Positions 37,352 through 61,500 of a DNA stretch of 64,000 nucleotides are shown here, one piece after another. The position numbers and the translations under genes were made by a program. The notes below the pieces were generated by a model. The model saw only the letters and a program-made list of their open reading frames with translations. It was not told the origin of the DNA and did no database searches. The DNA is from Chondrosia reniformis (Eukaryota; Porifera; Demospongiae; Chondrillida; Chondrillidae), in assembly GCA_947172415.1 (NCBI GenBank), contig OX359192.1, positions 4,280,501 to 4,344,500 of the forward strand, given 5' to 3'. Numbering within the stretch: position 1 is the stretch's first letter; each line of letters opens with the position of its first letter.

Positions 37352-40300
37352 GCATATAAGATATATACAATATATATTACATATAAGATATAAAATACAT
37401 ATATAATATAGATGCTTTTTTATTTTTTCTGGACCCAAACTTGTATTGAACCAGGGCATCATCGTACCTTGTATCCAGACGATGTTATCCGTAACACGAT
37501 CGGTGACGTGGGTTCCACAATATATGTAGTAAATGAAGTCCTATTTATATACCACTCACTTTTGACTCTACATATATATGCAATATATATATATATATAT
37601 GTAATATGCATAAAAGATATATACAATATATATTACATATAAGATATATAATACATAAATAATATGTATTCCTTTTTTCTTTTTTCGTGACCCAACCTGG
37701 TTTTGAACCAGGGCATCCTCGTACCTTGTAACCGGAAAATGTCATACGTAACAGCATCGGTCACGTGGGTTCCATAATATATGTTGAAAATGAAGTCCTC
37801 TTTATATACCACTCACTTTTGACTACATAGATATGTAATATATAAGATATATAACATGCATATAAGATATTTACAATATATATTACATATAAGATATATA
37901 ATACATATATAAGATGTATATTTTTTCTTTTTTTTTTTCAGGACGCAACCTGGTATTGAACCAGGGCATCATCGTACCTTGAATCCAGACCATGTCAACC
38001 GTAACACCATCGGTCACGTGGGTTCCCCAATATATGTTGTAAATGAAGTCCTATTTATATACCACTCGCTTTTGACTCTCACGTATATATGCAATATATA
38101 AGATATATAATATGCATATAAGATATATACAATACATATTACATATAAGATATATAATACATATATAAGAGGTATGCTTTTTTTTCCTTTTTCAGGACCC
38201 AACCTAGTATTTAACGAGGTCATCCTCGTACCTTGTATCCAGATGATGTCATCCGTAACACCATCGGTTATGTGGGTCACCCAATATATGTTTTAAATGA
38301 AGTCCTATATTTATATAACACTCACTTTTGACTCTATATATAATACATATATAATATGGATGCTTTTTTCTTTTTTCGGAACCCAACCTGGTTTTGAACC
38401 AGGGCATCATCGTACCTTGTATCCAGACCATGTTATCCGTAACACCCTCGGTCATGTGGGTTCCACAATATATGTTGTAAATGAAGTCCTCTTTATATAC
38501 CACTCACTTTTGACTCTACGTATATATGCTATATATAAGATATATAAAATGCATATAAGATATATACAATATATATTAGATATAAGATATATAATACATA
38601 TATAAGAGGTATCCTTTTTTGTTTTCTTTTTTCAGGACCCAACCTAGTATTTAACCAGGTCATCCTCGTACCTTGTATCCAGATGATGTCATCCGTAACA
38701 CCATCGGTCACGTGGGTCACCCAATATATGTTGTAAATGAAGTCCTATATTTATAGAACACTCACTTTTGACTCTACATATAATACATATATAATATGGA
38801 TGCTTTTTTTCTTTTTTCGGGACCCAACCTGGTTTTGAACCAGGGCATCATCGTACCTTGTATCCAGACCATGTCATCCGTAACACCCTGGGTCACGTGG
38901 GTTCCACAATATATGTTTTAAATGAAGTCCTCTTTATATACCACTCACTTTTTACTCTACGTATATATGCTATATATAAGATATATAATCTGCATATATA
39001 CATATATAAGATGTATGATTTTTTCTTTTTTTCTTTTTTCAGGACCGAACCTAATATTGAACCAGGTCATTCTCGTACCTTGTATCCAGATGATGTCATC
39101 CGTAACACCATCGATCAAGTGGGTCACCCAATATATGTTGTAAATGAAGTTCTATATTTATAGAACACTCACTTTTGACTTTACATATAATACATATATA
39201 ATATGGATGTTTTTTTTTCTTTTTTCGGGACCCAACCTGGTTTTGAACCAGGGCATCATCGTACCTTGTATCCAGACCATGTCATCCGTAACACCCTCGG
39301 TCACGTGGGTTCCACAATATATGTTGAAAATGAAGTCCTCTTTATATACCACTCAAATTTGACTACATAGATATGTAATATATAAGATATATAATATGCA
39401 TATAAGATATTTACAATATATATTACATAAAAGATATATAATACATATATAATATGTATGCTTTTTTCTTTTTTTCTCTTTTCAGGACGCAACCTGGTAT
39501 TGAAACAGGGCATCATCGTACCTTGTATCCGGACCATGTCATCCGTAACACCATCGCTCACGTGGGTTCCCCAATATATGTTGTAAATGAAGTCCTCTTT
39601 ATATACCACTCACTTTTGACTCTACATATAAATGCAATATATATATATAAGATATATAATATGCATATAAGATATATACAATATATATTACATATAAGAT
39701 ATATACAATATATATTACATATAAGATATATAATACATATATAAGATGAATACTTTTTTCAGGACCCAACCTTGTATTGAACCAGGTCATCCTCGTACCT
39801 TGTATCCAGACGATGTTATCCGTAACACCATCGGTCACGTGGGTTCCACAATATATGTTGTAAATAAATTCCTATTTATATACCACTCACTTTTGACTCT
39901 ACATATATATGCAATATATAAGATATATAATATGCATATAGGATATATACAATATATATTACATATAAGATATATAATACATAAATAAAATGTATGCTTT
40001 TTTCTTTTTTCAGGACCCAACCTGGTATTGAACCAGGGCATCCTCATACCTTGTATCCAGGTGATGTTATCCGTCACACCATGGGTCACGTGGGTTCCAC
40101 AATATATGTTGTAAATGAAGTCCTATTTATATACCACTCACTTTTGACTCCACATATATATGCAATATATATATATACATATATATATATATAATATTTA
40201 TATAAGATATATACAATATATATTACATATAAGATATATAATACATATATAAGATGTATGCTTTTTTTAAGGACCCAACCTTGTATTGAACCAGGGCATC

Positions 40301-41192
40301 CTCTACCTTGTATCCAGTCGATGTTATCCGTAACACTATTGGTTACGTGGGTTCCACAATATATGTTGTAAATTAAGTCCTAATTATATACCACTCACTT
40401 TTGACTCTACATATATATGCAATATATAAGATAAATAATATGCATATAAGATATATACAATATATATTACATGTAAGATATATAATACATATATAAGATG
40501 TATGCTTTTTTTGAGAAACCAACCTGGTATTCAATCAGGGAATCCTCGTACCTTGTATCCCGACGATGTCATCCGTAACACCATCGGTCACGTGGGTTCA
40601 ACAATATATGTTGTAAATGAAGTCCTATTTATATACCACTCACTTTTGACTCTACATATATATGCAATATATAAGATATATAATATGCAAATAAGATATA
40701 TACAATATATATAACATATAAGATATATAATACATATATAAGATTTGTGCTTTTTTTTCTTTTTTTCTTTTTTCAGGATCCAACCTGGTATTGAACCAGG
40801 GCATCCTGGTACCTTGTATCCATACGATGTCATCCGTAACACCATTGGTCACGTGGGTCACCCAATATATGTTGTAAATGAAGTCCTATTTATATACCAC
40901 TCACTTTTGACTCTACATATATATGCAATATATATATATATATATATATATAATATTTATATAAGATATATACAATATATATTACATATATGATATATAA
41001 TACATATATAAGATGTATGCTTTTTTTAAGGACCCAACCTTGTATTGAACCAGGGCATCCTCTACCTTGTATCCAGTCGATGTTATCCGTAACACCATTG
41101 GTCACTTGGGTTCCACAATATATGTTGTAAATGAAGTCCTCTTTATATACCACTCACTTTTGACCCTACATATATATGTAATATATAAGATT
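36962..41192 (-). repeat. tRNA-like satellite, about 17 units, minus orientation
   Basis: It starts with a shortened unit (36962-37030) lacking most of the tRNA-like head. Includes (TA)n runs near 37314-37347. Several units near 38.3-39.2 kb lack the long AT-rich tail, so spacing between heads drops there. Confidence 0.9.
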
Positions 41193-41777
41193 CAGTGGGC
41201 TCTCATTTATCCGCACCTGATTTATCCGGAAATCTCATATAACCGGTGTTTGAACTTAGGAACAAAAATTTTCCCATACAAAAGTATAGGAAATTATACT
41301 GAGTTATCCGAAACTGAGATATCCGTATCCGGCACTTCAGCGTGGGAACCACGTGCTGATTCTCCATACATTTCACACTTATCCGTCCAACTTTGAAGTA
41401 TGGCTACAAAATCAAGTTCCAAGTGTGCCAGAGTTTCTATCTCGGTTTCTTTGAAGAAGAAGATATGTGCCTACATGAAGAGCCACCCAAAGGCTACACA
41501 AGAAGAAATTCGTTCACTTATTTTTAAAGAAGATTCTGTTGATATCGGGCGAACAACGATTAGTGATATCCTTCGTGATGCAGACAAGTGGGCCAGCGTT
41601 GAGGACTCCACAATGAGTGCATCTATTCCTTTTGAAGAGCTTGTACTATATAGCACTGTCTTTCTGTCTTTCTTTCATGATAAAGGTAACTGTATGTCTA
41701 TATTTGTTATCCGACATCTCATTTATCCGGCACATTTTGCTGGGAACAAATATCGTCAGATAAATGAGAGCCCACTG
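41193..41777 (+). mobile_element. Tigger/pogo-like element, internally deleted, 585 bp
   Basis: The ends are inverted repeats CAGTGGGCTCTCATTTATCC (left) and CAGTGGGCTCTCATTTATCT (reverse complement of the right end). The right flank is TA; the left flank is TT, probably a mutated TA. CAGT-starting ends and a CENP-B-like N-terminal domain in the single ORF are typical of pogo/Tigger transposons. There is no room for a DDE domain, so this is a non-autonomous deletion derivative. Confidence 0.85.
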
Positions 41778-41795
41778 TATAAAATATGCATATAA
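41400..41795 (+). pseudogene. N-terminal fragment of a pogo/Tigger transposase (CENP-B N-terminal-like HTH)
   Basis: 131 codons from ATG. Residues about 10-65 (SVSLKKKICAYMKSHPKATQ, EEIRSLIFKEDSVDIGRTTI, SDILRDADKW) form a CENP-B N-terminal/psq-like helix-turn-helix. After about residue 80 the frame is non-homologous and runs through the right terminal repeat into satellite. Full-length relatives have a second HTH and a DDE domain, both absent. At most it could bind DNA. Confidence 0.75.
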
Positions 41796-44700
41796 GATAT
41801 ATACAATATATATTACATATAAGATTTATAATACATATATAAGATGTATGTTTTTCTTTTCTTTTTTCAGGACCCAACCTGGTATTGAACCACAACATCC
41901 TCGTACCTTGTATCCACACGATGTCATCCGTAACACCATCGGTCAAGTCGGTCACCCAATATATGTTGTAAATGAAGTCCTATTTATATACCACTCACTT
42001 TTGACACTACATATATATGCTATATATAAGATATATAATATGCATATAAGATATATACAATATATATTACATATAAGATACATAATACATATGTAAGATG
42101 TATTCTTTTTTTCTTTTATAAGGCCCAACCTTGTATTAAACCAGGGCATCCTCGTACCTTGCATCCAGACGATGTCATCCGTAACACCATCGGTCAAGTT
42201 GGTCACCCAATATATGTTGTAAATGAAGTCCTATTTATATACCACTCACTCTTGACTCTACATATATATGCAATATATAAGATATATAATATGCATATAA
42301 GATATATACAATATCTATTACATACAAAATATATAATACATATATAAAATGTGTGCTTTTTATCTTTTTTCAGGACCAAACCTGGTATTGAACAAGGGCA
42401 TCTACGTACCTTGTATCCAGACGATATCAACCGTATCACCATCGGTCACGGGAGTCACCCAATATATGTTTTAAATGAAGACCTATTTATATCCTACTCA
42501 CTTTTGACTCTACATATATATGCCATATATAAGATATATAATCTGAATATAAAATATATCCAATATATATTACAAATAAGATATATAATACATATATAAG
42601 ATGCATGCTTTTTTTTTCAAAACCCATCCTGGTATTGAACCAGGGCATCCTCGTACCTTGTATCCAGACGATGTCATCCGTAACACCATCGGTCACGTCG
42701 GTCACCCAATATATGTTGTAAATGAAGTCTCACTTTTGACTCTATATATATATGCAATATATATAACATATAAGAAATATAAAATATATATAAGATGTAT
42801 GCTTTTTTCATTTTTCAGGACCCAACCTGGTATTGAACCAGGGCATCCTCGTTCCTTGTATCCACACGATGTCATCCGTAACACCATCGGTCACGTGGGT
42901 CACCCAATATATGTAGTAAATGAAGTCCTATTTATATACAACTCACTTTGACTCTACATATATATGTAATATATAAGATATATAATATGGATATGGCATA
43001 TATACAATATATATTACATATAAGATATATAATACATATATAATTTCTATTCTATTTTTAGAACCCAACCTGGTATTGAACCAGGGCATCCTCGTACCTT
43101 GAATCCAGACGATGTCATCCGTAACACCATCGGTCATGTGGGTCACCCAATATATGTTGTAAATGAAGTCCTATTTATATACCACTCACTTTTGACACTA
43201 CATATATATGCAATATATAAGATATATAATATGCATATAAGATATATACAATATATATTACATATAAGATACATAATACATATGTAAGAAGTATTCTTTT
43301 TTTCTTTTATAAGGCTCAACCTTGTATTAAACCAGGGCATCCTCGTACCTTGTATCCAGACGATGTCATCCGTAACACCATCGGTCACGTTGGTCACCCA
43401 ATAGATGTTGTAAATGAAGTCATATTTATATACCACTCACTCTTGACTCTACATACATATGCAATATATAAGATATATAATATGCAAGATATATACAATA
43501 TCTATTACATACAAAATATATAATACATATATAAAATGTGTGCTTTTTATCTTTTTTCAGGAGCCAACCTGGTATTGAACAAGGGCATCTTCGCACCTTG
43601 TATCCAGGCGATGTCATTCGTATCACCATCGGTCACGGGAGTCACCCAATATATGTTGTAAATGAAGACCTATTTATATCCAACTCACTTTTGACTCTAC
43701 ATATATATGCAATATATAAGATATATACAATGTATATTACATATAAGATATATAATACATATATAAGATGTATGCTTTTTTCCTTTTAAAGGCACAACCT
43801 GGTATTGAACCAGGGCATCCTCGTACCTTGTGTCCAGACGATATCATCCATAACACCATTGGTCACTTGGATTCCACAATGAATATAATAAATGAAGTCC
43901 TATTTATATACCACTCACATTTGACTCTACATATATATGCAATATATAAGATATATAATATGCATATAAGATTTATACAATATATATTACATATAAGATA
44001 TATAATAAATATATAAGATGTAGGCCTTTTTCTATTTTCAGGAACCAACCTGGTATTGAACTAGGCTATCCTCGTACCTTGTATCCATACGATGTCTTCC
44101 GTAACACCATTGGTCACATCTGTTCCACAATATGTGTTTTAAATTAAGCCCTAATTATATACCACTCACTTTTGACTTTACATATATATGCAATATATAA
44201 GATATATAATATCAATATAAGATATATGCAATATATATTACAAATAAGATATATAATACATATATAAGATGTATGCCTTTTTTTCTTTTTGGAAACCAAC
44301 CTGGTATTGAACAGGGGCATCCTCGTACCTTGTATACAGACGATGTCATCCGTAACAGCATCGGTCACGTGGGTCACCCAATATATGTTGTAAATGAAGT
44401 CCTATTTATATACCACTCACTTTTGACTCTACATATATATGCAATATATAAGATATACAAAATGCATATAAGATATATACAATATATATAACATATAAGA
44501 TATATTATACATATATAAGATGTATGCTTTTTTTTCAGAACCTACCTGGTATTGAACCAGGGCATCCTCGTACCTTGTATCCAGACGATGTCATCCGTAA
44601 CACCATCGGTCTTGTGGGTTACCCAATATATGTTGTAAATGAAGTTCTATTTATATACCACTCACTTTTGACTCTACATATATATGCAATATATAAGATA

Positions 44701-45327
44701 TATACAATATATATAACATATAAGATATATAATACATATATAAGATGTAGGCTTTTTTGAGAAACCAACCTGGTGTTCAATCAGGGAATCCTCGTACCTT
44801 GTATCCAGACGATGTCATCCGTAACACCATCGGTCACGTGGGTTCCACAATATATGTTGTAAATGAAGTCCTATTTATATACCACTCACTTTTGACTCTA
44901 CATATATATGTAATATATAAGATATATACAATGCATATAAGATATATACAATATATATTACATATAAGATATATAATGCATATATAAGATGTATGCTTTT
45001 TCTTTCTTAAGGCACAACCTGGTATTGAACCAGGGCATCCTCGTACCTTGTATCCAGGCGATATCATCCGTAACACCATCGGTCACTTGGATTCCACAAT
45101 ATATGTTGTAAATGAAGTCCTATTTATATACCACTCACTTTTGACTCTACATATATATGCTATATATAAGATATATAAAATGCATATAAGATATATACAA
45201 TATATATAACATATAAGATATATAATTCATATATAAGATGTAAGCTTTTTTTTCAGAACCCATCCTGGTATTGAACCAGGGCATCCTCGTACCTTGTATC
45301 CAGAGGATGTCATCCGTAACACCATCG
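41778..45327 (-). repeat. tRNA-like satellite, about 14 units, minus orientation
   Basis: About 14 units. Distinct variants (TTTTATAAGGCCCAACC with TATTAAACC; GTGTGCTTTTTATCTTTTTT) recur about 1.19 kb apart. It ends inside the tRNA-like head (ACCATCG) at the 6.9 kb element, and the missing part of the head resumes at 52235. Confidence 0.92.
42100..43640 (-). repeat. Block duplication of about 1.19 kb (higher-order repeat)
   Basis: Marker variants at 42102 and 42352 recur at 43293 and 43539 (offsets 1191 and 1187). About five units were therefore duplicated together, with a deletion of a few bases in the second copy. Confidence 0.7.
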
Positions 45328-45524
45328 GCATGTGGAACATGTCCGTTATAGTTCCAATTTTATAAAGCCGCTTTTAGGTGTGAAATATTTGAACATTTTC
45401 AGGAAGTAGCATGAATGTCATGTGACTCACACATGAAATTTATATTATTATAATACAATGTCATGATGACACAGCAGAATGAAAAAACGTAATCGATTGA
45501 TTAGTCACTTGTTCCGCGAGGGTC

Positions 45525-45630
45525 GTCGAAGGACTAGAAGTCGAAATTCCTCAGTGGAAGAACGAGAAGGTACGGCGTGGGTCGGCGAAGGACTAGGATT
45601 CGAAAATCCTCAGTGAAAGAACGAGAAGGT
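45525..45630. repeat. Tandem duplication of about 70 bp near the left end of the 6.9 kb element
   Basis: GTCGTCGAAGGACTAGAAGT ... CCTCAGTGGAAGAACGAGAAGG is followed by GTCGGCGAAGGACTAGGATT ... CCTCAGTGAAAGAACGAGAAGG. Two copies with about 10 percent difference. Confidence 0.7.
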
Positions 45631-45950
45631 TAGATGTTTTATGTAACGTAGTATTTCCTTTTAGTCTTTTAGATGATTTGTGTAACGTATCATTTTAGAC
45701 TTTCTAGCTGACGTTACACAAATCATCTAGAAAGTCTGAAATGCTACGTTACACAAATCAACTAGAAAGTCTGAAATGCTACATTGTAACGTAGCATTTC
45801 AGACTTTTGTATAACGTATCATTTTAGACTTTTGTATAACGTATCATTTTGGACTTTTGTGTAATGTATCATTTTATACTTTCTAGTTGATTTGTGTAAC
45901 GTAGTTTTTTAATAAAGACTATTTACATGATTTGTGTAATGTAGCGTTTC
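45630..45950. repeat. Subterminal cluster of direct and inverted 30-45 bp repeats
   Basis: The motif GATTTGTGTAACGTA followed by GCATTTCAGACTTTCTAG or variants (ATCATTTTAGACTTT) occurs at least seven times, in both orientations; 45711-45775 holds two copies reversed. Clusters like this near the ends of CACTA-type transposons bind the transposase; that role here is inference. Confidence 0.75.
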
Positions 45951-46027
45951 ATTTTAGTTTGTTTAGATTGTTGAAATCTTTTGACATGTGGTGGCTTTGA
46001 AAAAAGCCATTTGTTAGTTCTTTTTAT

Positions 46028-46291
46028 TTATTTTTCAGCTGGCTCCTTTTCCTCCTCCAGATGTACAAACCTGCACTTTGGGTTTGTACATGGCCTCCCC
46101 CAACACAACATAAATGGCCTCTTGCAGCCTTCAAGCAGGTGAGGTTCCACATGCCTGTATTCGCACTCTCCAGGTCCTTTTTTACATTTGTCTTGGAACC
46201 TACACAGCTTTGGTAGGTTCCCTGGCTTCTTGGTCTTGGCCTTTTTTCTCCTTTTTCTCCGTTCTCTTTTTGGATTATAGTTATATGGCAT
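46028..46291 (-). CDS. small CCCH-type zinc-finger protein, about 87 residues
   Basis: The basic N-terminus (MPYNYNPKRERRKRRKKAKT) is followed by two CCCH-like fingers: CRFQDKCKKGPGECEYRH (C-x5-C-x6-C-x3-H) and CWGRPCTNPKCRFVH (C-x4-C-x4-C-x3-H). Fingers of this type usually bind RNA. The frame can be opened further upstream to 46323 and ends at 46028. It lies downstream of the transposase-like gene on the same strand, so it may be its last exon or a second element gene. No introns seen. No exact family recognised. Confidence 0.5.
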   Translation of the reverse strand: MPYNYNPKRERRKRRKKAKTKKPGNLPKLCRFQDKCKKGPGECEYRHVEPHLLEGCKRPFMLCWGRPCTNPKCRFVHLEEEKEPAEK

Positions 46292-46547
46292 TTATTGAAA
46301 TTTCCGAAGTTAAAAGTTGCCATATTTTGCTGTATCAGCTGTTGTAGCTATGCTGGGTTGAGTCTATTTATACTGTTGGTTGGAGGGTGTGTCATCACGC
46401 CCAATATAGGCTGGTTATTCACTTTCTCACCACCTTATCCATGCACTAGCAGGTGAAGATATGACCTTATTATCAACATATTGTTACTTTGTTTTCACTT
46501 TATTGTTATTGTCTTGCGTGTAAATTAGTATCATTTAATTGTATTTG

Positions 46548-46662
46548 TCTGTACATCTATGCTGTTCCATATGGGTTCACTATTGGGACCAGCACCAAAG
46601 AAATTGTCCATTCAAGGACATTTGGTGGTGTTCCTAGAAATTAAGCCATATGGACAAATCCT
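46548..46662 (+). repeat. Dispersed CSICGS-KPYG module, copy 3
   Basis: The plus strand reads CTGTTCCATATGGGTTCACT ... and would encode the same peptide as the copies at 9.1 and 11.1 kb, apart from a small indel in the CSICGS part. It ends with a GKPYF-like stretch near 46675-46690. Confidence 0.55.
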
Positions 46663-46784
46663 TCAGCACTTTGGGAAGCCATACTTTTGAGGTAAGTCCT
46701 TTAATTGTATGTATTTTGTTGTGTCACCTAAACTTTTGCTAAAATGATTTTGCACATGTAAGGAACTTTAGCTGTATTTGTCTG

Positions 46785-46900
46785 TTCATCTATGCTGTTC
46801 CATATGTGGTTCACTATTGGGACCAGCACCAAAGAAATTGTCCATTCAAGGACATTTGGTGGTGTTCCTAGAAATGAAGCCATATGGACAAATCCTTTAA
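46785..46900 (+). repeat. Dispersed CSICGS-KPYG module, copy 4
   Basis: The plus strand encodes CSICGSLLGPAPKKLSIQGH followed by LVVFLEMKPYGQ with an open frame. It is a direct repeat of copy 3, about 237 bp apart, with shared upstream DNA (GTATTTGTCTGT[A/T]CATCTATG). Confidence 0.6.
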
Positions 46901-47187
46901 CTGTATGTACTGTGTTGGGAAATTTAAAATGACTTGATGTTATGTACACTGAACACTAACCAGCCAGCAAAGAGGGATACCTAGACTTTGTTAAGTCTTT
47001 CATGCATCCTCATTACCAGTAAATTAGTGAAGAATGTACTGATGACTGACATACATTTCAGCATAACAATGAAGTGGAATATGCATGGCTGGGTAGAATG
47101 TTGATCTGAACAGATAGACTCATTAGCATATGCATGGCCAATCTTCTGAGAAGTGACGGCTTTGAAAAAAGCCTTTATTAGAAATTG

Positions 47188-47260
47188 TAATAGAGCCACA
47201 CAACGACTCTTATAATAGAGCCACACAACGACTCTTATAATAGAGCCACACAACGACTCT
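47188..47260. repeat. 25 bp minisatellite, three copies
   Basis: The unit AATAGAGCCACACAACGACTCTTAT is repeated with a 25 bp period from 47188 to 47260. It lies just after a GGCTTTGAAAAAAGCC hairpin that also occurs near 45991. Confidence 0.85.
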
Positions 47261-47424
47261 CTAATGAAGATTACATACCAATTTCAAGCAAAGCTTTATA
47301 TCCTTAGCATACTCACTGTACATGGTATTAATGGGAGATACTTGGGCTATTTGGAGATCTAAACTATGTTTCTTAGCTGAGATCTTTTTCCTAAAGTATC
47401 GGGCTAGTGAATGATACCTTTCCT

Positions 47425-50400
47425 TCAGAGAAGGTAACATATGCCTATCTCCTTGCTTATACATACACCGCATTGATCAAATACATTCAAATCAGCGGAA
47501 GAGCCAAGCAATTTGGCAATAGCTTTACACACTGATGATTCAAGAGATACTTCAGGACAACTATTCAGTACCTCATCTACTTGTACATCTACAGCACCTT
47601 CTGTGTTCAGGTTAGGATTTTGCTCATCATTTCCATTACTATTTTCCTTTTGGACAAAACCATCTTCACCAATTTCAGATGCTATAGAACTTTCCTCACT
47701 CTTAATTGTTTTCCTACATGGAGTGGAAGACTTAGGAGAAGCCAAAGTAGGCTGGATAAATGTTGCTTCAAATGAAAACTCAGGTTCACTTGAAACACTC
47801 ACACAGTTAGCAGAGGAAATTTCAGATATGTTACCTTCCCTTTCATTTTCTCTTTCCATGATTATAGGAAGTGTTATTTTCCTTTCAATAACCTCCTTCC
47901 AACAGGATTCGGACCTTTCAGCAACATCTTCCATTGAAGCATTACGGAAATGTAACAATTCAGGCCCTTTAGATGAGATTTCTTCACCATCCTGCAAGTC
48001 ATGGAAACAAAAGCTGCCAAATGAGTCTCTGTGCCACCAAACCCCTTCACCACACTTTAAGTAAGGCCTTATTCTTTTAAGGTGAGCCTTGTAGGAATCT
48101 GTCCTTCTATTAATAAACTCTTCCTTGAAGATAGTGCCTGGGTAGGGAGGAAGTTTTGAAGCAGACTGGCTAATTCTTGAGTTTTCCTTTCTCAATTTTA
48201 ACAAGGGGTTGCTGGTTTTTTGATTCCTTTAACATTGAAGTCTTTTCAGTACCCCTCGTAGCATGTTTTCTGGCTTGTGATCAGTACACTTTGCTGCTGA
48301 TTCAGCACTCTTGAAGATTCTCTCCTCATTTTCAGTGTTGGTTGACCTGAAGTTAACAACTTCATGTTGCATAGGACCATGCACAAGTAAAGCATGAAAA
48401 TAATTTGAGATCATTGTGTCACCAAACAGCTCACAATGCAGCTCATGAACAATATATGCACAATTATAAAACTGTAGGCATTGTTTGGGACTTCTGTTAG
48501 AATCTTTTGAATACAGAATATTGGACAGTTGAACAAGACAGCAAATAAAAGTAGCCACAGTACTTGGAGTATCATATAAGTGGAATATGTGAGCTACATC
48601 TACTAGTGCTTTACGAAGGTCAGAACCATACAAATTTGCCTTCTTCCACAAGGTACTAAAATAATCACACAATGAAGTTTTTAGCCTTGAAGGCCCCAAA
48701 ACCAAGGCCAATTGTCTAAAGACAGCACCTAGATAGCCCTTTAAATCATGGAGAGGCTCACAAGGAAGGACACTGTAGCTATCTTGATGAAACTCATCTA
48801 ATGAACTTTCGGGTGCCATCATCAGTAAAGAGGGAACTCTTTGCACCCCCCGGAGCATTTCCTTTAGGACATTTAATCTACCCTTTTTATCAGACGGATA
48901 GTCCTTAACACCCCTTTTCTCTAACTCAATTCTTAACTGATTTGTGTTTAATTCTTCGTAGTACTTTATCTTACCAGGAACTTTACCAAAGTATCCTCCT
49001 GTAGCCACTTTAAGATTTTACTGCAGCGTCCTTTGTTCACACTTAACTGCATGCTGAAAATCTGCAAAACTATTACGGTGACAAACACAAGCAACACAAG
49101 GATAATTTCCACCACATGTGATTCCAGCTTTAAATTGTGCTGCAGGTTTATCACCCTTGAAGAAACATAGCCTATCAGTAATTCTGATTCCAGTTGAACT
49201 TAGAACCTCATCACTTAGACCATCCAATTCTGAGAGTTGCTCAGGAATTAAAGTAGCCTGATCTTGTAGTGATGAGGACCCATTAGCAACTACATGAATT
49301 TCTCCTTCTTGGAGAAACTCTTCTACATTTTTACCTATTTCATTTTCAGTCATGAACACAATGGGGTCATACATAACCCCAACCATTATGGCTAAAATAC
49401 CATGTGATGCTAGACTTGAGTGGTCATGCCATATCCAGATAGTCCTTGTCCTCTCATATTTGGAAAGGAGGTGTTTCAATTCCTCCAAACTCAAATTTTC
49501 AAATTGATTCATAGAATATCCTGCCCCTTTCCTAAGTACACCTAGAATATATTCCTTACTCATTGCTTCAATCTCAACATCAGTATGAAGCCTCATAAAT
49601 TTTTCATGGGCCTTCAGCAAACCATTTTGAATGTAAAACCAAGGAAATTTACGACTTTGGGCAACAGTTTCAACCCTTTCTCCTTTGTGATATCGTACTA
49701 GAGTAATGGGAATACATGGTATGCCTTCATTTAATACACCACTTTGGACAAGGGAACGGTCAATGTCTACTAATCGCCTTTTGTTAGGAGGTACAGGTAC
49801 TGCCATAGATGTGCTTTGGAATCTTTTTTTGTAGACTTTGGCTTTGGAACTATTTCAAGCCCTTGAATTCAAGGATTAATTTCTTGAGCAAGTTAGCTAA
49901 TTTTATTACTGCCATCAGTAGCACTGACATAAAACAATTTAGCTATATCACTGGCTATAAATTTAGTATTAAGGTCCCATGTTTTTAAGCATTCACAAAG
50001 TTCTGGAAATTTGCTGCATTCATGTGGTCTCAGTGGATACCGCTTCCTTTTTGGGGCTTTGTCATCAGTGGGTAGCTCAAAAAATTGTTCTTTGCGAAAG
50101 CTATCAGCCTTGCTTAAACTAATATTATTTGAATAAACAGCTTGAAGGGTACTAGAATCAAGTATGCCCTTAAAGTCTAGGATTAACTCCTTTTGTGCTC
50201 CTTTAACTAACTTATTAACATCCCCTTTACTGCAACACCTATTTCTAGAACGGTCACTCAGGGGCTTAGCAAAATTCTCTTTTTTCCCATTATATGTTTC
50301 CTTTGAAGCATTTTCTTTCTCATAATCTGATATTTCAAAAAAAGGCTTCAGTGGAAAGGTTTTCTGGATTTCTGGAAACTGCATAGCACAAGCAACACAG

Positions 50401-50775
50401 TTTGACAAAGAATGTCTTTCCTTTTCAGATGAGGACAATTCAGACCAATTGAAAGAAGAAAAAGCTTTTACATAGTTTTCCTTAAATGTTGAAGTATTAA
50501 AACTTTTGCAAAAGCGTTTTCTATCATTTTACAGTGGGATTCAAACAAACTAATGGATTTAAGACTTTTTTCTCAAAATAGTTTGGGCCAATCACAAATT
50601 GCGGTCCCACAAATAAGCTTTGAAATCTTTCTACAATATTGGACTCAACCTTCTCAGTCTTGCTTTTACTCTCCTTCTCCTAGGATGTTCCAGCACTCCT
50701 TTTAGGTAGACCTTCATACACCAATGTGTGGCAAAAGCCACAGTTAAAAGATCTTCCCGAAATTTTCACAATGTG
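47425..50775 (-). pseudogene. Degenerate large gene of the 6.9 kb element, putative DDE transposase
   Basis: Consecutive open stretches on the minus strand look like one protein of about 1000 residues broken in several places. In order: a CxxC piece near 50750 (FNCGFCHTLVYEGLPKRSAG); NIVERFQSLFVGPQFVIGPN; a basic linker (50438-49893); then 49806-49018 with IWIWHDHSSLASHGILAIMV, ENEIGKNVEEFLQEGEIHVV and KAGITCGGNYPCVACVCH; then 49008-48229 with CEPLHDLKGYLGAVFRQL and NYFHALLVHGPMQHEVVNFR; then 48204-47425, a hydrophilic tail. The acidic HDHS and GDKPAAQFKAG sites, the GGNYPCVAC cysteines and PLHDLKG resemble the layout of CACTA- or KDZ-type transposases. I recall similar multicopy uncharacterised proteins in sponges and cnidarians. 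Assignment is inference; the catalytic residues are not proven. Confidence 0.5.
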
Positions 50776-51110
50776 GCATCAAAACATTCAAAGGAAAGCA
50801 AAAATGAATTAATGCTATTCTGTCTTACTATTTCTACTTATGAGTGTCGCAGTAAATTTTGCCTTAAGCTTTATGGATCGCAGTTATAATTAGGTTTGGC
50901 TTTTTAAGAATCTTAATGTCACTAAGTCTACATCTGCATGCAAAACTAGCCTTATGTTATGGGCATGATAGCTATCTAAAAGCTATTTTATCAAAGCAAG
51001 AATGACGATTGGTATATTTCTCTGTTGAATTACATAGGTGATATTGTAGAGGCTTATTACTACGTTGTCAAATTATCAATTTGCGAAAACTTATGAAGAA
51101 TTAACCTATA
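50776..51110. other. No gene recognised
   Basis: AT-rich, probably the upstream region of the transposase-like gene. No supported ORF and no clear promoter element. Confidence 0.5.
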
Positions 51111-51111
51111 G

Positions 51112-51410
51112 TAGAGGAGGAAGGCCTATGTGACCTAAACGTTCTTAAGTAGTATAATCAAAAGATAAATAAAACGTTTCGGCCTCGTAGGCCTTAATTC
51201 CTCAACTATTGCTAACGTAGTAAATAAATAATAGCTTAGGAATTAAGGCCTACGTGACCTAAACGTTCTAAAGTAGTATTATCAAAAGATAAATAAAACG
51301 TTTCGGCCTCGTAGGCCTTAATTCCCCAGCTATTATTAACGTAGTAAATAAATAATATCTGAGGAATGAAGGCCTACGTGGCCGAAATGTTCTATTTATC
51401 TTTTGATTAT
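51112..51410. repeat. Subterminal hairpin repeats, 124 bp period
   Basis: AACGTTTCGGCCTCGTAGGCCTTAATTCC blocks (written in two parts: AACGTTTCGGCCTCGT, AGGCCTTAATTCC) alternate with their reverse complements (GGAATTAAGGCCTACGTGACC). The unit with flank GTTCTWAAGTAGTATWATCA recurs 124 bp apart, with a third half copy to 51410. Each inverted pair can form a hairpin with 30-40 bp stems. The position mirrors the left subterminal cluster. Confidence 0.8.
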
Positions 51411-52233
51411 ATGCTCATATGTCTTTGCCATTGATAATTACATAGATATTAGCAGACAGGCAATATGCTTACTGTTTCCACTTACCTCTTACGACAACAA
51501 AAAACTTCGATCAAGGAAACTGTATCGTTATCGAGAAGCCTTACGTGAAATATCAACTTCGGAAGTGTAATGTTTGTATAACGTGTTACCAAATATTTGG
51601 GTGCATATGCAACGTCATAAGACGTCATTGTATGACGGCTTGGCAATACTACTAGTATTAGGCTGACTGTCACGTGACAATACCTATATTCGATGGAGAA
51701 GAGACAAATGGAAAATGAACCTCTTACCAGACAGTGGAGGATTGTATATCTAACCATTTTTTGACATCAATCTCTTCAGTAAGTAACAGCCTAAAAGTTG
51801 TATATATACTCCTGGAATATTCCCTTGTTTAACTGAGATATGAATTGCTAGAGGCGGCCGATAAAGGTATGAAAAAAAGTTTTCGATTATAATTCAAAAA
51901 CTGAAGGGAATTTCAAAGGAGTATACATACAATCGTTAGATATCATTATCCTTCATAGAATGGTGTCAGAATTTATTATATTTTCGTATTTTCCACTGTC
52001 TGGAAAAACATTTTTCCGATTTGGGGCCTATAACTTACAGCCGCTTACCTTCTCCTTTAAGCCTGCAATCGTGATGCTCTTGTAGCCAAAATATTACGAA
52101 CGAATAGCGCTTCAATTCTATGCAATTGGTTCAATGATACAATGTTTCTAAAGTAAAATACAATAAATTAAAAAGAGTGTAAGTCGACGACTTTTGTAGA
52201 TAATTTTCGGAAGTATTGACATGTTCCACTTGC
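51411..52233. other. Right end of the 6.9 kb element, no gene
   Basis: No recognised coding sequence. The ORF at 51482-51757 on the minus strand has no domain I recognise. TTCCACTGTCTGG near 51990 and its relative CCAGACAGTGGAGG near 51728 form an inverted pair. Ends with GACATGTTCCACTTGC. Confidence 0.5.
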
Positions 52234-54209
52234 GCGGTCACGTGGGTAACCCAATATATGTTGTATATGAAGTCCTTTTTATATACCACTCACTTTTCAC
52301 TCTACATATATATGCAACATATAAGATATATAAAATGCATATAAGATATATGCAATATATATTAAATATAAGATATATAATACATATATAAGATGTATGC
52401 TTTTTCATTTTTAAGGCCCAACCTGATATTGAACTAGGGCATCCGCGTACCTTTTATCCAGACGATGTCATCCGTAACACCATCGGTCACGTCGGTCACT
52501 CAATATAGGTTGTAAATGAAGTCCTATTTATATACCACTCACTTTTGACTCTACAAATGTATGCAATATATAAGATATATAATATGCATATAAGATATAT
52601 ACAATATCTATTACATATAAGATATATAATACATATATAAAATGTATGCCTTTTTTGTTCAGAACCCAACCTTGTATTGAACCAGGGCATCCTCGTACCT
52701 TGTATCCAGACGATGTCATCCGTAACACCATCGGTAAAATGGGTCACCCAATATACGTTGTAAATGAAGTCCCATTTATATACCACTCACTTTTGACTCT
52801 ACATATATATGCAATATATAAGATAAATAATATGCATAAAAGATATATACAATATATATTACATATAAGATATATAATACGTATATAAGATGTATGCCTT
52901 TTCTTTTTTAAGGCCAAACCAGGTATTGAACCTGGGCATCCTCGAAATTTACCCGGACGATGTCATCCGTAACACCATCGGTCACGTGGGTCACCCAATA
53001 TATGTTGTAAATGAATTCCTATATACCACTCACTTTTGACTCTACATATATATGCAATATAAAAGATATATTATGCATATAAGATATTTACAATATATAT
53101 TACATGTAAGATATAAAATACATATATACGATGTAGGTTTTTTTTCTCTTTTCGGGAACTAACCTGGTATTGAGGTTGGGTATCCTCGTACCTTGTATCC
53201 AGACGATGTCTTCCGTAACACCTTCGATCACATGGGTTTCACAATATATGTCTTAAATTAAGTCCTAATTATATACCACTCACTTTTGACTCTACATATA
53301 TATGCAATATATAAGATATATAATAGCAATATAAGATATATACAATATATAATAAATATATAAGATGTATGCCTTTTTTCCTTTTTCAAGACCCAACCTG
53401 GTATTGAACTAGGGCATCCTCGTACCTTGTAAACAGACGATGTCATCCGTAACACCATCGGACACGTGGGTCACCAAATATATGTTGTAAATGATGTCCA
53501 ATTTATATCCCTCTCACTTTTGACTCTACATATATATGCAATATATAAGATATATAATATGCATATAAGATATTTGCAATATATATTACATATAAGATAT
53601 ATAACACTTATATAAGATGTAGGCTTTTTTTTATTCTTTTTTCAGGAACCAACCTGGTTTTGAACCGGGGTATCCTTGTACCTTGTCTCCAGAAGATGTC
53701 ATCCGTAACACCATCGGTCACGTGGGTCACACAATATATGTTGTAAAGGAAGTCCTTTTTATATACCACTCACTTTTAACTCTACATATGTATGCTATAT
53801 ATATATATATATAATATGCATATAAGATATATACAATATATATTACATATAAGATATATAATACATATATATGATGTATGCTTTTTTTTCAAAACCCAAC
53901 TTGGTATTGAACCAGGGCATCCTCGTACCTAGTATCCAAACGATGTCATCCGTAACACCATCGGTCACGTGGGTCACCCAATATATGTTGTAAATGAAGT
54001 CCACTTTATATACCACTCACTTTTGACTCTACATATATATGCAATATATAAGATATATAATATGCATATAAGATATATACAATATATATTACATAAAAGA
54101 TACATAATACATATAGAAGATGTATGCTTTTTCTTTTTTAAGGCCCAACCTTGTATTGAACCAGGGCATCCTCGTACCTTTTATCCAGACGATGTCATCC
54201 GTAACACCA

Positions 54210-54705
54210 TCGGTAACGTCGGTCACTCAATATATGTTGTAAATGAAGTCCTATTTATATACCACTCACTTTTGACTCTACATATGTATGCAATATATAA
54301 TATATATAATATGCATATAAGATATATACAATATCTATTACATATAAGATATATTATACATATATAAGATGTATCCTTTTTTTTCAGAACCCAACTTGGC
54401 ATTGAACCAGGTCATCGTCGTACCTAGTATCCAGACGATGTCATCCGTAACACCATCGGTAATGTCGGTCACTCAATATATGTTGTAAATGAAGTCCTAT
54501 TTATATACCACTCACTTTTGACTCTACATATGTATGCAATATATAAGATATATAATATGCATATAAGATATATACAATATCTATTACATATAAGATATAT
54601 TATACATATATAAGATGTATCCTTTTTTTTCAGAACCCAACTTGGCATTGAACCAGGTCATCGTCGTACCTAGTATCCAGACGATGTCATCCGTAACACC
54701 ATCGG
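54210..54705 (-). repeat. Recent local duplication of satellite units
   Basis: Units at about 54210-54457 and 54458-54705 share rare variants (CTTGGCATTGAACC, ATCGTCGTACCTAG, GTCGGTCACTCAATATATG) and differ at very few positions, which indicates recent tandem duplication. Confidence 0.65.
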
Positions 54706-57700
54706 TCACGTCAGTCACCGAATATATTTTGAAAAAGAAGTCCTATTTATATACCACACACTTTTGACTCTATATATCTATGCAATATATAAGATATATA
54801 ATATGCATAAAAGATATATACAATATATATTACATATAAAATATATACTACGTATATAAGATGTATGCTTTTTCTTTTTTAAGGCCCAACCTGGTATTGA
54901 ACCTGGGCATCCTGGTACTTTTTATCCAGACAATGTCATCCGTAACACCATCGGTCACGTCGGTAATATATTTTGTATATATACAAAATATATTACATAT
55001 AAGATATATAATACATATATAAGATGTATGCTTTTTTTATTTTATTCTTTTTTTCAGGAACCAACCTGGTTTTGAACCAGGGTATCCTCGTACCTAGTAT
55101 CCAGACGATGTCATCCGTAACACCATCGGTCACGTGGGTCACCCAATATATGTTGTAAATGAAGTCCTCTTTATATACCACTCACTATTGACTCTACATA
55201 TGTATGCAATATATAAGATATATAATATGCATATAAGATATATACAATATATATTACATAAAAGATATATAATACATATATAAGATGTATGCTTTTTCTT
55301 TTTAAGGCCCAACCTTGTATTGAACCAGGGCATCCTCGTACCTTTTATCCAGACGATGTCATCCGTAACACCATTGGTCACGTCGGTCACTAAATATATG
55401 TTGTAAATGAAGTCCTATTTATATACCACTCACTTTTGACTCTACACATGTATGCAATATATAAGATATATAATATGCATATAAGATATATAAAATATCT
55501 ATTACATATAAGATATATAATACATATAGAAGATGTATCCTTTTTTTCAGAACCCAACTTGGCATTGAACCAGGTCATCGTCGTATCTTGTATCCAGACG
55601 ATGTCATCCGTAACACCATTGGTCACGTCAGTCACCGAATATATGTTGTAAATGAAGTCCTATTTATATACAACACACTTTTGACTCTATATATATATGC
55701 AATATATATGATATATAATATGCATAAAAGATATATACATTATATATTACATATAAAATATATACTACGTATATAAGATGTATGCTTTTTCTTTTTTAAG
55801 GGCCAACCTGATATTGAACCTGGGCATCCTCGTACTTTTTATCCAGACGATGTCATCTGTAACACCATCGGTCACGTTGGTCACCCAATATATGTTGTAA
55901 ATGAAGTCCTATTTATATACCACTCACTTTTGACTCTACATATATATGTAATATATAAGATATATAATATGCATATAAGATATTTACAATATATATTATA
56001 TATAAGATATAAAATACATATATAAGATGTAGGCTTTTTTCCAATTTTCGGGAACTAGCCTGGTATTGAACTAGGGTATCCTCGTACCTTCTATTTATAC
56101 GATGTCTTCCGTAACACCATCGGTCACGTCGGTTTCACAATATATGTTTTAAATTAAGTCCTAATTATATACCACTCACTTTTGAATCTACATATATATG
56201 CAATATAAAAGATATATAATAGCAGTATAAGATATATGCAATAAATATTACATATAAGATATATAATACATATATAGGATGTATGCCTTTTTTTTCTTTT
56301 TTCAGGACCCAACCTGGTATTGAACCAGGGCATCCTCGCACCTTGTATCCAGACGATGTCATCCGTAACACCATCGGTCACGTCGGTCACCAAATATATG
56401 TTGTAAATGAAGTCCTATTGATATACCACTCACTTTTGACTCTATATATATATTCAATATATAAGATATACAATATGCATATAAGATATATACAATATAT
56501 ATTATATATAAGATATATAATACGTATATAAGATGTAGGCTTTTTTTCTATTTTCGGGAACCAATCTGGTATTGAACCAGGATATCCTCGTACCTCGTAT
56601 GCAAACGATGTCTTCCGTAACACCATCGGTCATGTGGGTTTCACAATATATGTTGTAAATTAAGTCCTAATTATATACCACTCACTTTTGACTCTACATA
56701 TATATGCAATATATAAGATATATAATAACAATATAGGATATATACAATATATATTACATATAAGATATATAATACATATATAAGCAGTATGCTTTTTTTC
56801 AGGACCCAACCTTGTCCAGGGCATCCTCGTAACTTGTATACAGACAATGTCATCCGTAACACCATCGGTCATGTGGGTTCCACAATATATGTTGTAAATG
56901 AAGTCCTCTATATATACCACTCACTTTTGACTCTACATATATATGCAATATATAAGATATATAATATGCATATAAGATATATACAATATATATTACATAA
57001 AAGATATATAATACATATATAAGATGTATGCTTTTTTTCTTTTTTCATGACCCAACCTGGTATTGAACTAAGGTATCCTCGTACCTTGTATCCAGAGAAT
57101 GTCATCCGTAACACTATCGGTCACGTGGGTTCCACAATATATGTTGTAAATGAAGTTCTATTTACATACCACTCACTTTTAACTTTATATATATATGCAA
57201 TATATAAAATATACAGTATACAAATAAGATATATACAATATACATTAAATATAAGATATATAATACATATATAAGATGTATGCTTTTTTCTTTTTTCGCG
57301 ACCCAACCTTGTATTGAACAAGGGTATCCTCGTAACTTGTATCCAGACGATGATATCCGTAACACCAACGGTCATGAGGGTTCAACAAAATATATTTTAA
57401 ATGAAGTCCTATTTATATACCACTCACGTTTGACTCTACATATATATGCAATATAAAAGATATATAATATGCATATAAGATATATACAATATATATTAAA
57501 TATAAGATATATAATACATATATAAGATGTATGCCTTTTTTTCTTTTTTCAGGACCCAACCTGGTTTTGAACCAGGGCATCCTCGTACCTTGTATCCAGA
57601 CGATATCAACCGTAACACCATCGGTCACGTGGGTCACATAATATATGTTGTAAATGAAGTCCTATATACCACTCAATTTTGACTCTACATATATCTGCAA

Positions 57701-59270
57701 TATTAAAAAATATATAATATGCATATAAGATATATACAATATATATTACATATAAGATATATAATACATATATAAGATGTAGGTTTTTTTTCAGGACACA
57801 ACCTGGTATTGAACCAGGGCATCCTCGTAACTTGTATACAGGCGATGTCATCCGTAACACCATCGGTCAGGTGGGTTCCACAATATATGTTGTAAATGAA
57901 GTCCTCTTTATATACCACTCACTTTTGACTCTACATATATATGCAATATATAAGATATATAATATGCATATAAGTTATATACAATATATATTACATATAA
58001 GAAATTTAATACATATATAAGATGTATGCTTTTTTCTTTTCAGGACTCAACCTTGTATTGCACTAGGGAATCCTCGTACCTCGTATCCAGACGTTGTCAT
58101 TCATAACACCATCGGTCATGTGAGTTCCACAATATATGTTATAAATGAAGTTCTATTTATACACCACTCACTTTTGACTCTACATATATATTCAATATAT
58201 ATGATATATAATATGCATATAACATATATTGAATATATATTACATATAAGATATATAATACATTTATAAGATGTGTTTTTTAAAGGACCCTACCTGGTAT
58301 TGAACCATGGCATCCACATACCTTGAATCCAGACGATGTTATCCGTAACACCATGGGTCAAGTGGTTTCCACAATATATGTTGTAAATGAAGTCCTATTT
58401 ATATACCACTCACTTTTGACTCTACATATATATGCAATATATAAGATATATAATATGCATATAAGTTATATACATTATATAATACATATAAGATATATAA
58501 TACATATATAAGATGTGTTGTTTTCTTATTTCAGAACCCTACCTGGTATTGAACCAGGGCATCCCTGCACCTTGTATCCCGACGACATCATCCGTAACAC
58601 TATCTGTCACCTGGGTTCCACAATATATGTTGTAAATGAAGTCCTATTTACATACCACTCACTTTTGACTCTACATATATATGCAATATATAAGATATAT
58701 GATATGCATATAAGTTATATACAATATATATTACATAAAAGATATATAATATATACATAAGATGTATGCTTTTATTCTTTTTTCAAGACCCAACCTGGTT
58801 TTGAACCAAGGCATCCTCGTACCTTGTATCCAGACGATGTCATCCGTAACACCATCGGTCATGTGGTTTCCACAATATATGTTGTAAAGGAAGTCCTCTA
58901 TATATACCACTCACTTTTGACTCTACATATATTTGCAATATATAACATATATAATATGCATATAAGATATATACAATATATTTATATAAAAGATATATAA
59001 TACATATATAAAATGTATGCTTTCTTTCTTTTTTTAAGACCCAACCAGGTATTGAACCAGGGCATCCTCGTACCTTGTATCCAGACGATGTCATCCGTAA
59101 CACCATTGGTCACGTGGGTTTCACAATATATGTTGTAAACGAAGTCCTATTTATATACCACTCACTTTTGAATCTATATATATATGCAATATATAAGATA
59201 TATAATGTGCTTATAAGATATATACAATATCTATTACATATAATATATATAATACATATAAGATGTATGC

Positions 59271-61500
59271 TTCTTTTTCATTTTTAAGGACCCAACCTGG
59301 TATTGAACCAGGGAATCCTCGTACCTTGTAACCAGACTATGTCATCCGTAACACCATCGGTCATGTGGGTTCCACAATATATGTTGTAAATGAAGTCCTA
59401 TTTATATACCACTCACTTTTGATTCTACATATATATGCAATATATATAATATATATATAAGATGTATGCCTGTTTTTTTCTTTTTTCAGGGCCCAACCTG
59501 GTATTGAACCGGGGCATCCTCGTTCCTTGTATCCAGACGATGTCATCCGTAACACCATCGGTCACGTGGGTCACCCAATATATGTTGTAAATGAAGTCCT
59601 ATATACCACTCACTTTTGACTCTACATATATATGCAATATGTAAGATATGTAATAGCAATATAAGATATATACAATATATATTACATATAAAATATATAA
59701 TACATATAAGATGTATGCTTCTTTTTCTTTTTTAAGGACCCAACCTGGTATTGAACAAGGGAATCCTCGTACCTTGTAACCAGACTATGTCATCCGTAAC
59801 ACCATCGGTCACGTGGGTTCCACAATATATGTTGTAAATGAAGTCCTATTTATATACCACTCACTTTTGATTCTACATATATATGCAATATATATAATAT
59901 ATATATAAGATGTATGCCTGTTTTTTTCTTTTTTCAGGGCTCAACCTGGTATTGAACCGGGGCATCCTCGTTCCTTGTATCCAGACGATGTCATCCGTAA
60001 CACCATCGGTCACGTGGGTCACCCAAGATATGTTGTAAATGAAGTCCTATATACCAATCACTTTTGACTCTACATATATATGCAATATATAAAATATGTA
60101 ATAGCAATATAAGATATATACAATATATATTACATATAAAATATATAATACATATAAGATGTATGCTTCTTTTTCTTTTTTAAGGACCCAACCTGGTATT
60201 GAACCAGGGCATCCTCGTACCTTGTAACCAGACTATGTCATCCGTAGCACCATCGGTCACGTGGGTTCCACAATATATGTTGTAAATGAAGTCCTATTTA
60301 TATACCACTCACTTTTGATTCTACATATATATGCAATTTATATAATATATATATAAGATGTATGCCTGTTTTTTTCTTTTTTCAGGGCCCAACCTGGTTT
60401 TGAACCGGGGCATCCTCGTTCCTTGTATCCAGACGATGTCATCCGTAACACCATCGGTCACGTGGGTCACCCAATATATGTTGTAAATGAAGTCCTATAT
60501 ACCACTCACTTTTGACTCTACATATATATGCAATATATAAGATATGTAATAGCAATATAAGATATATACAATATATATTACATATAAAATATATAATACA
60601 TATAAGATGTATGCTTCTTTTTCTTTTTTAAGGACCCAACCTGGTGTTGAACAAGGGAATCCTCGTACCTTGTAACCAGACTATGTCATCCGTAACACCA
60701 TCGGTCACGTGGGTTCCACAATATATGTTGTAAATGAAGTCCTATTTATATACCACTCACTTTTGATTCTACATATATATGCAATATATATAATATATAT
60801 ATAAGATGTATGCCTGTTTTTTTCTTTTTTCAGGGCCCAACCTGGTATTGAACCGGGGCATCCTCGTTCCTTGTATCCAAACGATGTCATCCGTAACACC
60901 ATCGGTCACGTGGGTCACCCAATATATGTTGTAAATGAAGTCCTATATACCACTCACTTTTGACTCTACATATATATGCAATATATAAGATATGTAATAG
61001 CAATATAAGATATATACAATATATATTACATATAAAATATATAATACATATAAGATGTATGCTTCTTTTTCTTTTTTAAGGACCCAACCTGGTATTGAAC
61101 CAGGGAATCCTCGTACCTTGTAACCAGACTATGTCATCCGTAGCACCATTGGTCACGTGGGTTCCACAATATATGTTGTAAATGAAGTCCTATTTATATA
61201 CCACTCACTTTTGATTCTACATATATATGCAATTTATATAATATATATATAAGATGTATGCCTGTTTTCTTCTTTTTTCAGGACCCAACCTGGTATTGAA
61301 CCGGGGCATCCTCGTTCCTTGTATCCAGACGATGTCATCCGTAACACCATCGGTCACGTGGGTCACCCAATATATGTTGTAAATGAAGTCCTATATACCA
61401 CTCACTTTTGACTCTACATATATATGCAATATATAAGATATGTAATAGCAATATAAGATATATACAATATATATTACATATAAAATATATAATACATATA
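59271..61500 (-). repeat. 448 bp dimeric higher-order repeat, five copies
   Basis: The marker TTCTTTTTC following GATGTATGC occurs at 59271, 59719, 60167, 60615 and 61063, exactly 448 bp apart. Each period has two different monomers: one with TTAAGGACCCAACC and ACCAGACTATG, and one with CAGGGCCCAACC and GAACCGGGGCATCCTCG and a shortened tail. The copies are nearly identical, so this is the youngest part of the satellite in this window. Confidence 0.92.

Follow-up and report, generated by a model that had tools for sequence, protein, structure and literature searches.

A decayed transposon in a sponge satellite array and its genomic relatives, probable members of the CACTA/Mirage/Chapaev/Transib clade

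What kind of mobile element interrupts a satellite array of the sponge Chondrosia reniformis, and do intact relatives of it exist in the same genome? The question is raised by a stretch of 64,000 nucleotides of contig OX359192.1 (positions 4,280,501 to 4,344,500 of the forward strand, also given here as C4:4280501-4344500), referred to below as the window, in which a first-pass annotation made from the letters alone had described a 6.9-kb transposon. The element occupies 45328..52234 (6907 bp, with no strand assigned), as judged from its ends, its recurrence in the genome, and comparison of its flanks. With a probability of about 0.72, it is the decayed, shortened remnant of a class II (cut-and-paste) transposon of the CACTA/Mirage/Chapaev/Transib (CMCT) type, whose intact form is predicted from sequence to encode an 1183-amino-acid DDE (aspartate-aspartate-glutamate) transposase of a lineage that lacks a Pfam model. 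It is probably a new lineage of an already known kind of transposon.

The ends of the element recur in the genome. In the 117,379,552-base assembly (15 contigs), the end pattern CGCWWGTGNRACATGTC has 165 and 145 exact matches (310 altogether), whereas the same pattern read backwards has 0 and 0. The ends, whose confinement to this place would have refuted the first-pass annotation, are therefore not private to the window locus, and the 6.9-kb transposon that it described is real. Moreover, the left 301 bases of the window element match 19 places, the window included, over at least positions 1-244, and its right 300 bases match at least 40 places, the window included, among 234 candidates (the 40 that were scored all matched). 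The target duplication was counted in opposite-facing pairs of ends: the first 100 of the 310 end places contained 22 new opposite-facing neighbor pairs, 20 of which were taken, leaving out C3:3993183 and C3:4409267. The 2 bp outside the terminal CG are identical on both sides in 18 of these 20 pairs, whereas agreement over 3 bp and over 4 bp is found in 0 of 20 each; mispaired flanks, which served as controls, agree over 2 bp in 42 of 380 cases. When shared flanks are counted once, the 2-bp duplication is seen in 12 of 14 distinct flank contexts. The duplicated dinucleotides in the 18 pairs are TA (six), AG (three), CA and TT (two each), and TC, TG, AA, CT, and GA (one each).

Inspection by eye of the loci that carry both ends (L018-L028) revealed a 2-bp duplication in 10 of 11, and these other copies end in CGC...GCG. 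Two further copies have their ends in separate loci and were likewise read by eye: the copy on C1 (L004/L013) is flanked by a duplicated TA, and that on C10 (L007/L011) by TC, with one right-end base changed. The C10 copy also sits in the 250-bp satellite, as the window copy does. Since the 2-bp agreement lies outside the terminal CG, the terminus of the element reads CGCATGTGG or nearly so, and the full 17-bp end of the family reads CGCATGTGGAACATGTC, with the terminal CG preceding CATG. In or beside several copies, a 13-bp tandem repeat, GTTGTATGTACTA, is found (L013:2810-3281 and the flanks of L022, L024, L027, L090, L112, L114, and L116); perhaps insertions are favored or tolerated there.

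In the window, the left terminal inverted repeat (45328..45343, plus strand) has the family form CGCATGTGGAACATGTC with the first C missing, and the right one (52218..52234, minus strand) reads inwards as CGCAAGTGGAACATGTC. The 16-bp ends with one mismatch reported before are indeed present at 45328-45343 and 52218-52233 (94% complementary). The boundaries had, however, been called certain; the right one was one base off, and the CGG on both sides, taken as a 3-bp target duplication, was misread. The left flank consists of CG followed by GCATG, and the right side of CTTGCG followed by CGGTCACG, for which the simplest reading is that the duplication is CG and that one C was lost at the left end. 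The left copy of the duplication would then lie at 45326..45327, as suggested by the family rule and the empty site, and the right copy at 52235..52236, as indicated by flank comparison and the empty site (neither is assigned a strand). The empty site can be restored: the flanks joined with a single CG agree at 75 of 78 positions with the satellite unit at 38667, so that the insertion splits a unit of a 250-bp tandem satellite, in agreement with the first description. This satellite occupies most of the window from approx. 38000 to 45327 and from 52235 to 64000, and the window contains its mark ACCATCGGT 53 times. A tRNA-like stretch suspected by eye within the satellite was not borne out: ARAGORN reported 0 and Rfam nothing of that kind. 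A short palindrome, CATGT GGA ACATG, lies inside the terminal repeat (45329-45341).

Inside the ends, clusters of subterminal repeats are found on both sides, as had been noted, and they recur in other copies. On the left, two 59-bp repeats (45511..45628, plus strand), also present in L002, are followed by 25-bp and 35-bp repeats in direct and inverted orientation (45628..45966, plus strand, from repeat analysis); the 35-bp unit is present in about 2 copies in the window versus 7.1 in L002. The right cluster (51120..51411, plus strand) comprises 2.2 copies of a 124-bp unit, which is also found in L013, and long inverted repeats. Repeat analysis also located three copies of a 25-bp repeat just past the 3' end of the transposase gene (47185..47260, plus strand); four perfect copies of it stand beside the transposase 3' end in the element on C3 (L065:428-528).

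The window copy is one of many. A search of the genome with the catalytic piece of the transposase yielded 74 matched stretches, the lowest at approx. 30% identity; 10 of them, including the window, reach 89% identity or more across 270 or more of the 278 residues. Frames of 1183 amino acids are open in three relatives and frames of 1095 amino acids in two. Over the last 1000 codons (3000 nt), pairwise identity among four of these five copies is 99.67% or more (99.90% in one pair), and the fifth is 98.4-98.7% identical to the other four; these near-identical copies show that the family has spread recently. An apparently intact copy with an 1183-amino-acid frame lies at C3:4691704-4703230, with 11,527 bp between its ends and a duplicated CA. 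Its right arm and that of the window copy are 74% alike over 538 columns, and thus at least two right-arm subfamilies exist. In addition, short copies measured at three loci are 1108, 1163, and 1290 bp long, and the right 0.96 kb of the one at L018 is 87% like the right arm of the window. Such copies of approx. 1.1-1.3 kb, which keep approx. 0.96 kb of the right arm, fit non-autonomous derivatives that would be moved in trans. Three more distant loci (L047, L048, and L050, approx. 40% identical to the window transposase) have an identical frame break at an identical position, as would result from multiplication of a copy already out of frame or from use of a frameshift. Searches for relatives elsewhere gave 40 pattern stretches in viral contigs and 48 in bacterial and archaeal genomes, 0 of which were confirmed in either set; none were found in phage genomes.

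The transposase gene of the window copy (47264..50769, minus strand) is decayed: compared with the 1183-amino-acid frames, it has two in-frame TAA codons and about four frame changes, and its catalytic core (48229..49854, minus strand, from open reading frame and translation analysis) is broken by a TAA at 49018-49020. The three motifs by which the broken gene had been described were all located on the minus strand: HDHSSLASHG by translation at 49399-49428, GGNYPCVAC at 49087..49113, and PLHDLKG at 48736..48756. Six members were aligned, and 13 rows were stacked on the intact 1183-amino-acid protein, whose numbering is used here. The putative first catalytic aspartate, D463 (WHDHS, 49423..49425 in the window, minus strand), is present in 12 of 13 rows, and the putative second, D554 (GDKPA, 49150..49152, minus strand), in all 13. 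All 13 rows likewise contain both histidines of the H(4)H motif, H806 and H811 (HALLVH, 48379..48396, minus strand), and the putative catalytic glutamate, E830 (NTENEE, 48322..48324, minus strand), and the histidine pair precedes this glutamate by 19-24 residues. The histidine of PLHD, which is placed like PMH of Transposase_21 proteins, is found in 11 of 13 rows (one row has a gap and one has M). GGNYPCVAC supplies a C(2)C motif, which occurs in the context of the second aspartate (D.PA) in four of 13 rows, among them those of the window and of the intact copy.

These residues can be compared with those of L083 and L084, two proteins of the host with matches to Transposase_21 (PF02992), the EnSpm/CACTA family, at 2.2e-18 and 1.4e-13. 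Both aspartates, C(2)C, a PMH-like histidine, H(3-4)H, and the glutamate follow in identical order, and three of five anchor spacings agree within 3 residues between the family protein on C3 and the two host proteins: 91 versus 88 (L083) and 90 (L084) residues separate the two aspartates, 18 versus 19 and 19 separate the second aspartate from the first cysteine, and the first histidine of H(4)H lies 24 residues before the glutamate in all three. In 190,263 residues of six-frame translation, the pattern D.PA.{5}G.{7,10}C..C has 22 matches, of which 20 belong to this family, with the window and the intact copy among them, and two to L083/L084; it arose in 0 of 20,000 shuffles of the 1183-amino-acid protein, a figure that overstates the case because the motif was picked after viewing both groups. 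The CMCT signature is described as C(2)C and H(3-4)H between the second aspartate and the glutamate, together with duplications of 2-5 bp (PMC12730594). The family is assigned to this clade because of its motif order and spacing, its short duplication, and its anatomy, and not through a significant alignment. The earlier proposal of a CMC relative that does not start with CACTA is supported with respect to residues, spacing, duplication, and subterminal repeats, and it gained no significant profile match.

Several results weigh against CMCT membership. C(2)C is absent from the D.PA context in nine of 13 rows, mostly one related C-x-C group, and the two other spacings differ: 134 residues in the C3 protein versus 101 (L083) and 103 (L084) lie between the second aspartate and the PLH/PMH histidine, and 118 versus 132 and 132 between this histidine and H(3-4)H. 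The duplication is missing in L025 and in two of the 20 pairs. At E values up to 10, the six family members have no Pfam match except for four unrelated, single, weak ones, and the 1097-amino-acid part of the intact protein contained in L033 has no notable match. When the family profile was aligned with L083/L084 by hhalign, the score was 16.4, compared with 17.1 for the reversed sequence and 14.3-21.0 for ten shuffles, which amounts to no signal, although a two-sequence template makes a weak test; in an ungapped window scan against the same proteins, the top score was reached by 108, 97, and 108 of 200 shuffles at three window sizes. A structure model built from the single window sequence has a mean predicted local distance difference test score (pLDDT) of 34.4 and is not usable. 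Finally, CMCT elements start with CA..TG in most cases (PMC12730594), whereas this family starts with CG; its ends read CGCATG..., with CATG inside the terminal CG, and the rule is not an absolute criterion. The remaining profile searches were also negative. The transposase pieces of the window match none of the 24,736 Pfam models, PF02992 matches neither these pieces nor the intact protein part nor the six members (L083 and L084, the positive controls, do match), and searches of NCBIfam and of PDB sequences with the transposase pieces gave nothing useful. Genome profile searches with PF18758 and PF18759 returned 0 matches each, as did their controls, so that the one with PF18758, the KDZ (Kyakuja-Dileera-Zisupton) domain, is uninformative.

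The transposase could instead fall outside CMCT, in another DDE superfamily such as an entirely separate one of eukaryotes, its CACTA motif likeness being convergent or picked by eye; this would account for the missing Pfam matches and profile-level similarity to the host Transposase_21 proteins, for the C(2)C in only four rows, and for ends that start with CG. Such an origin is unlikely, given the shared residue order, the three nearly equal spacings with their constant distance from H(4)H to the glutamate, and the short duplications and subterminal repeats, which suit CMCT. The family might also be nothing more than one of the lineages that Repbase lists (animal EnSpm, Mirage, or similar), a reading that overlaps the CMCT assignment and is a real possibility, if somewhat short of even odds. 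Uncharacterized cnidarian and sponge proteins have similar motifs. Elements of the CACTA type that end in CAC..GTG and make 2-bp duplications have been published, such as ENS1_Cis of a tunicate and CMC-NA_1 (PMC6004678). The ends of the present family are not CAC..GTG, however, and none of the Pfam models recognizes it, whereas the host CACTA proteins do match Transposase_21. The first-pass annotation had also offered a Kyakuja-Dileera-Zisupton (KDZ) relative, without Pfam evidence. KDZ elements are eukaryotic DDE transposons, and nothing more specific is shared. The KDZ origin is rejected as highly improbable because the duplication is 2 bp, whereas Zisupton makes 8 bp and Kyakuja 7 bp (PMC12730594), and because 0 of 6 family members have a KDZ Pfam match at E values up to 10.

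Within the CMCT clade, to which the family is provisionally assigned, the EnSpm/CACTA elements share with it the motif order, three spacings, the subterminal repeats, and a short duplication, which is 2 bp in some of them (PMC6004678). They differ in the PF02992 match, in the two other spacings mentioned above, and in ends of CACTA or CAC as opposed to CGCATG. Ordinary Transposase_21 genes occupy 55 places in the host genome (e.g., C7:554144 and C12:5041711), several with open frames of 800-920 amino acids, and by eye these places do not overlap those of the family. Plavaka elements share C(2)C, H(3-4)H, and the short duplication; PlavakaA has 2 bp and TGT..ACA ends, and PlavakaB has 2 or 3 bp and CATCA..TGATG ends (PMC12730594). 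The family has neither of these termini, and its six members have no Plavaka Pfam match. ESTA likewise combines CMCT motifs with a 2-bp duplication, but it duplicates TA (PMC12730594), whereas this family duplicates TA, AG, CA, TT, TC, TG, AA, CT, and GA. Mirage is an animal CMC lineage near Transposase_21; DUF1258 (PF06869) has been tied to it and DUF1280 to Chapaev (PMC3985635). DUF1258 weakly matches L083 and L084 and does not match the family.

A second open reading frame of the window copy (46028..46291, minus strand) is a possible accessory gene. It lies 3' of the transposase gene on the same strand and encodes 87 amino acids with two CCCH-type zinc fingers; its best Pfam match, a Nab2-like CCCH finger, has an E value of 6.4e-4, which is below the curated cut-off. 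At the DNA level, 24 genomic matches to this stretch were found, one of them being the window itself. The finger residues are all kept in four of the six copies that are readable through both fingers; the last histidine is replaced in L002 and one cysteine in L008, and a seventh copy, L007, is shortened. Among five copies, pairs differ by 0 synonymous and 1-4 non-synonymous changes, too few to test selection, and compared with the sixth copy these five show 6 synonymous differences over 44-45 sites and 6-8 non-synonymous differences over 168-169 sites. A supporting role of the CCCH protein, through binding to subterminal repeats or to the RNA of the element, is possible.

The following course of transposition can be proposed for the family. 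The transposase would recognize the 17-bp ends CGCATGTGGAACATGTC together with the arrays of subterminal repeats and, as a DDE enzyme, would excise the element, which would then be joined to a target cut with a stagger of 2 bp, resulting in the duplication of any dinucleotide. The transposase, or close relatives of it, may mobilize the copies of approx. 1.1-1.3 kb in trans, and the CCCH protein with its two fingers, encoded in many of the copies, might assist via the subterminal repeats or the element RNA. Plant CACTA elements carry a DNA-binding helper protein. It is tentatively suggested, in a proposal that may well be wrong, that the family is a CMCT lineage of superfamily rank, recently active in the sponge, whose ends have a CG outside the usual CA..TG, whose insertion duplicates 2 bp of whatever sequence, and whose second component, a tandem CCCH protein borne by the element, replaces the helper of plant CACTA elements.

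This family was not found in the literature searched for such elements; ends of CGC(A/T)(A/T)GTGG accompanied by 2-bp duplications provide a search rule for finding it elsewhere. If the CMCT assignment is right, the sponge offers a complete and apparently recent example, with ends, duplication, empty site, three full frames, and trans-mobilized short copies, of a transposase lineage that is unnamed in current protein family libraries. The V(D)J recombinase RAG1 has its origin in related CMCT enzymes (PMC12730594), and new, divergent, and testable members of the clade would help to define which parts of this class of enzymes are essential.

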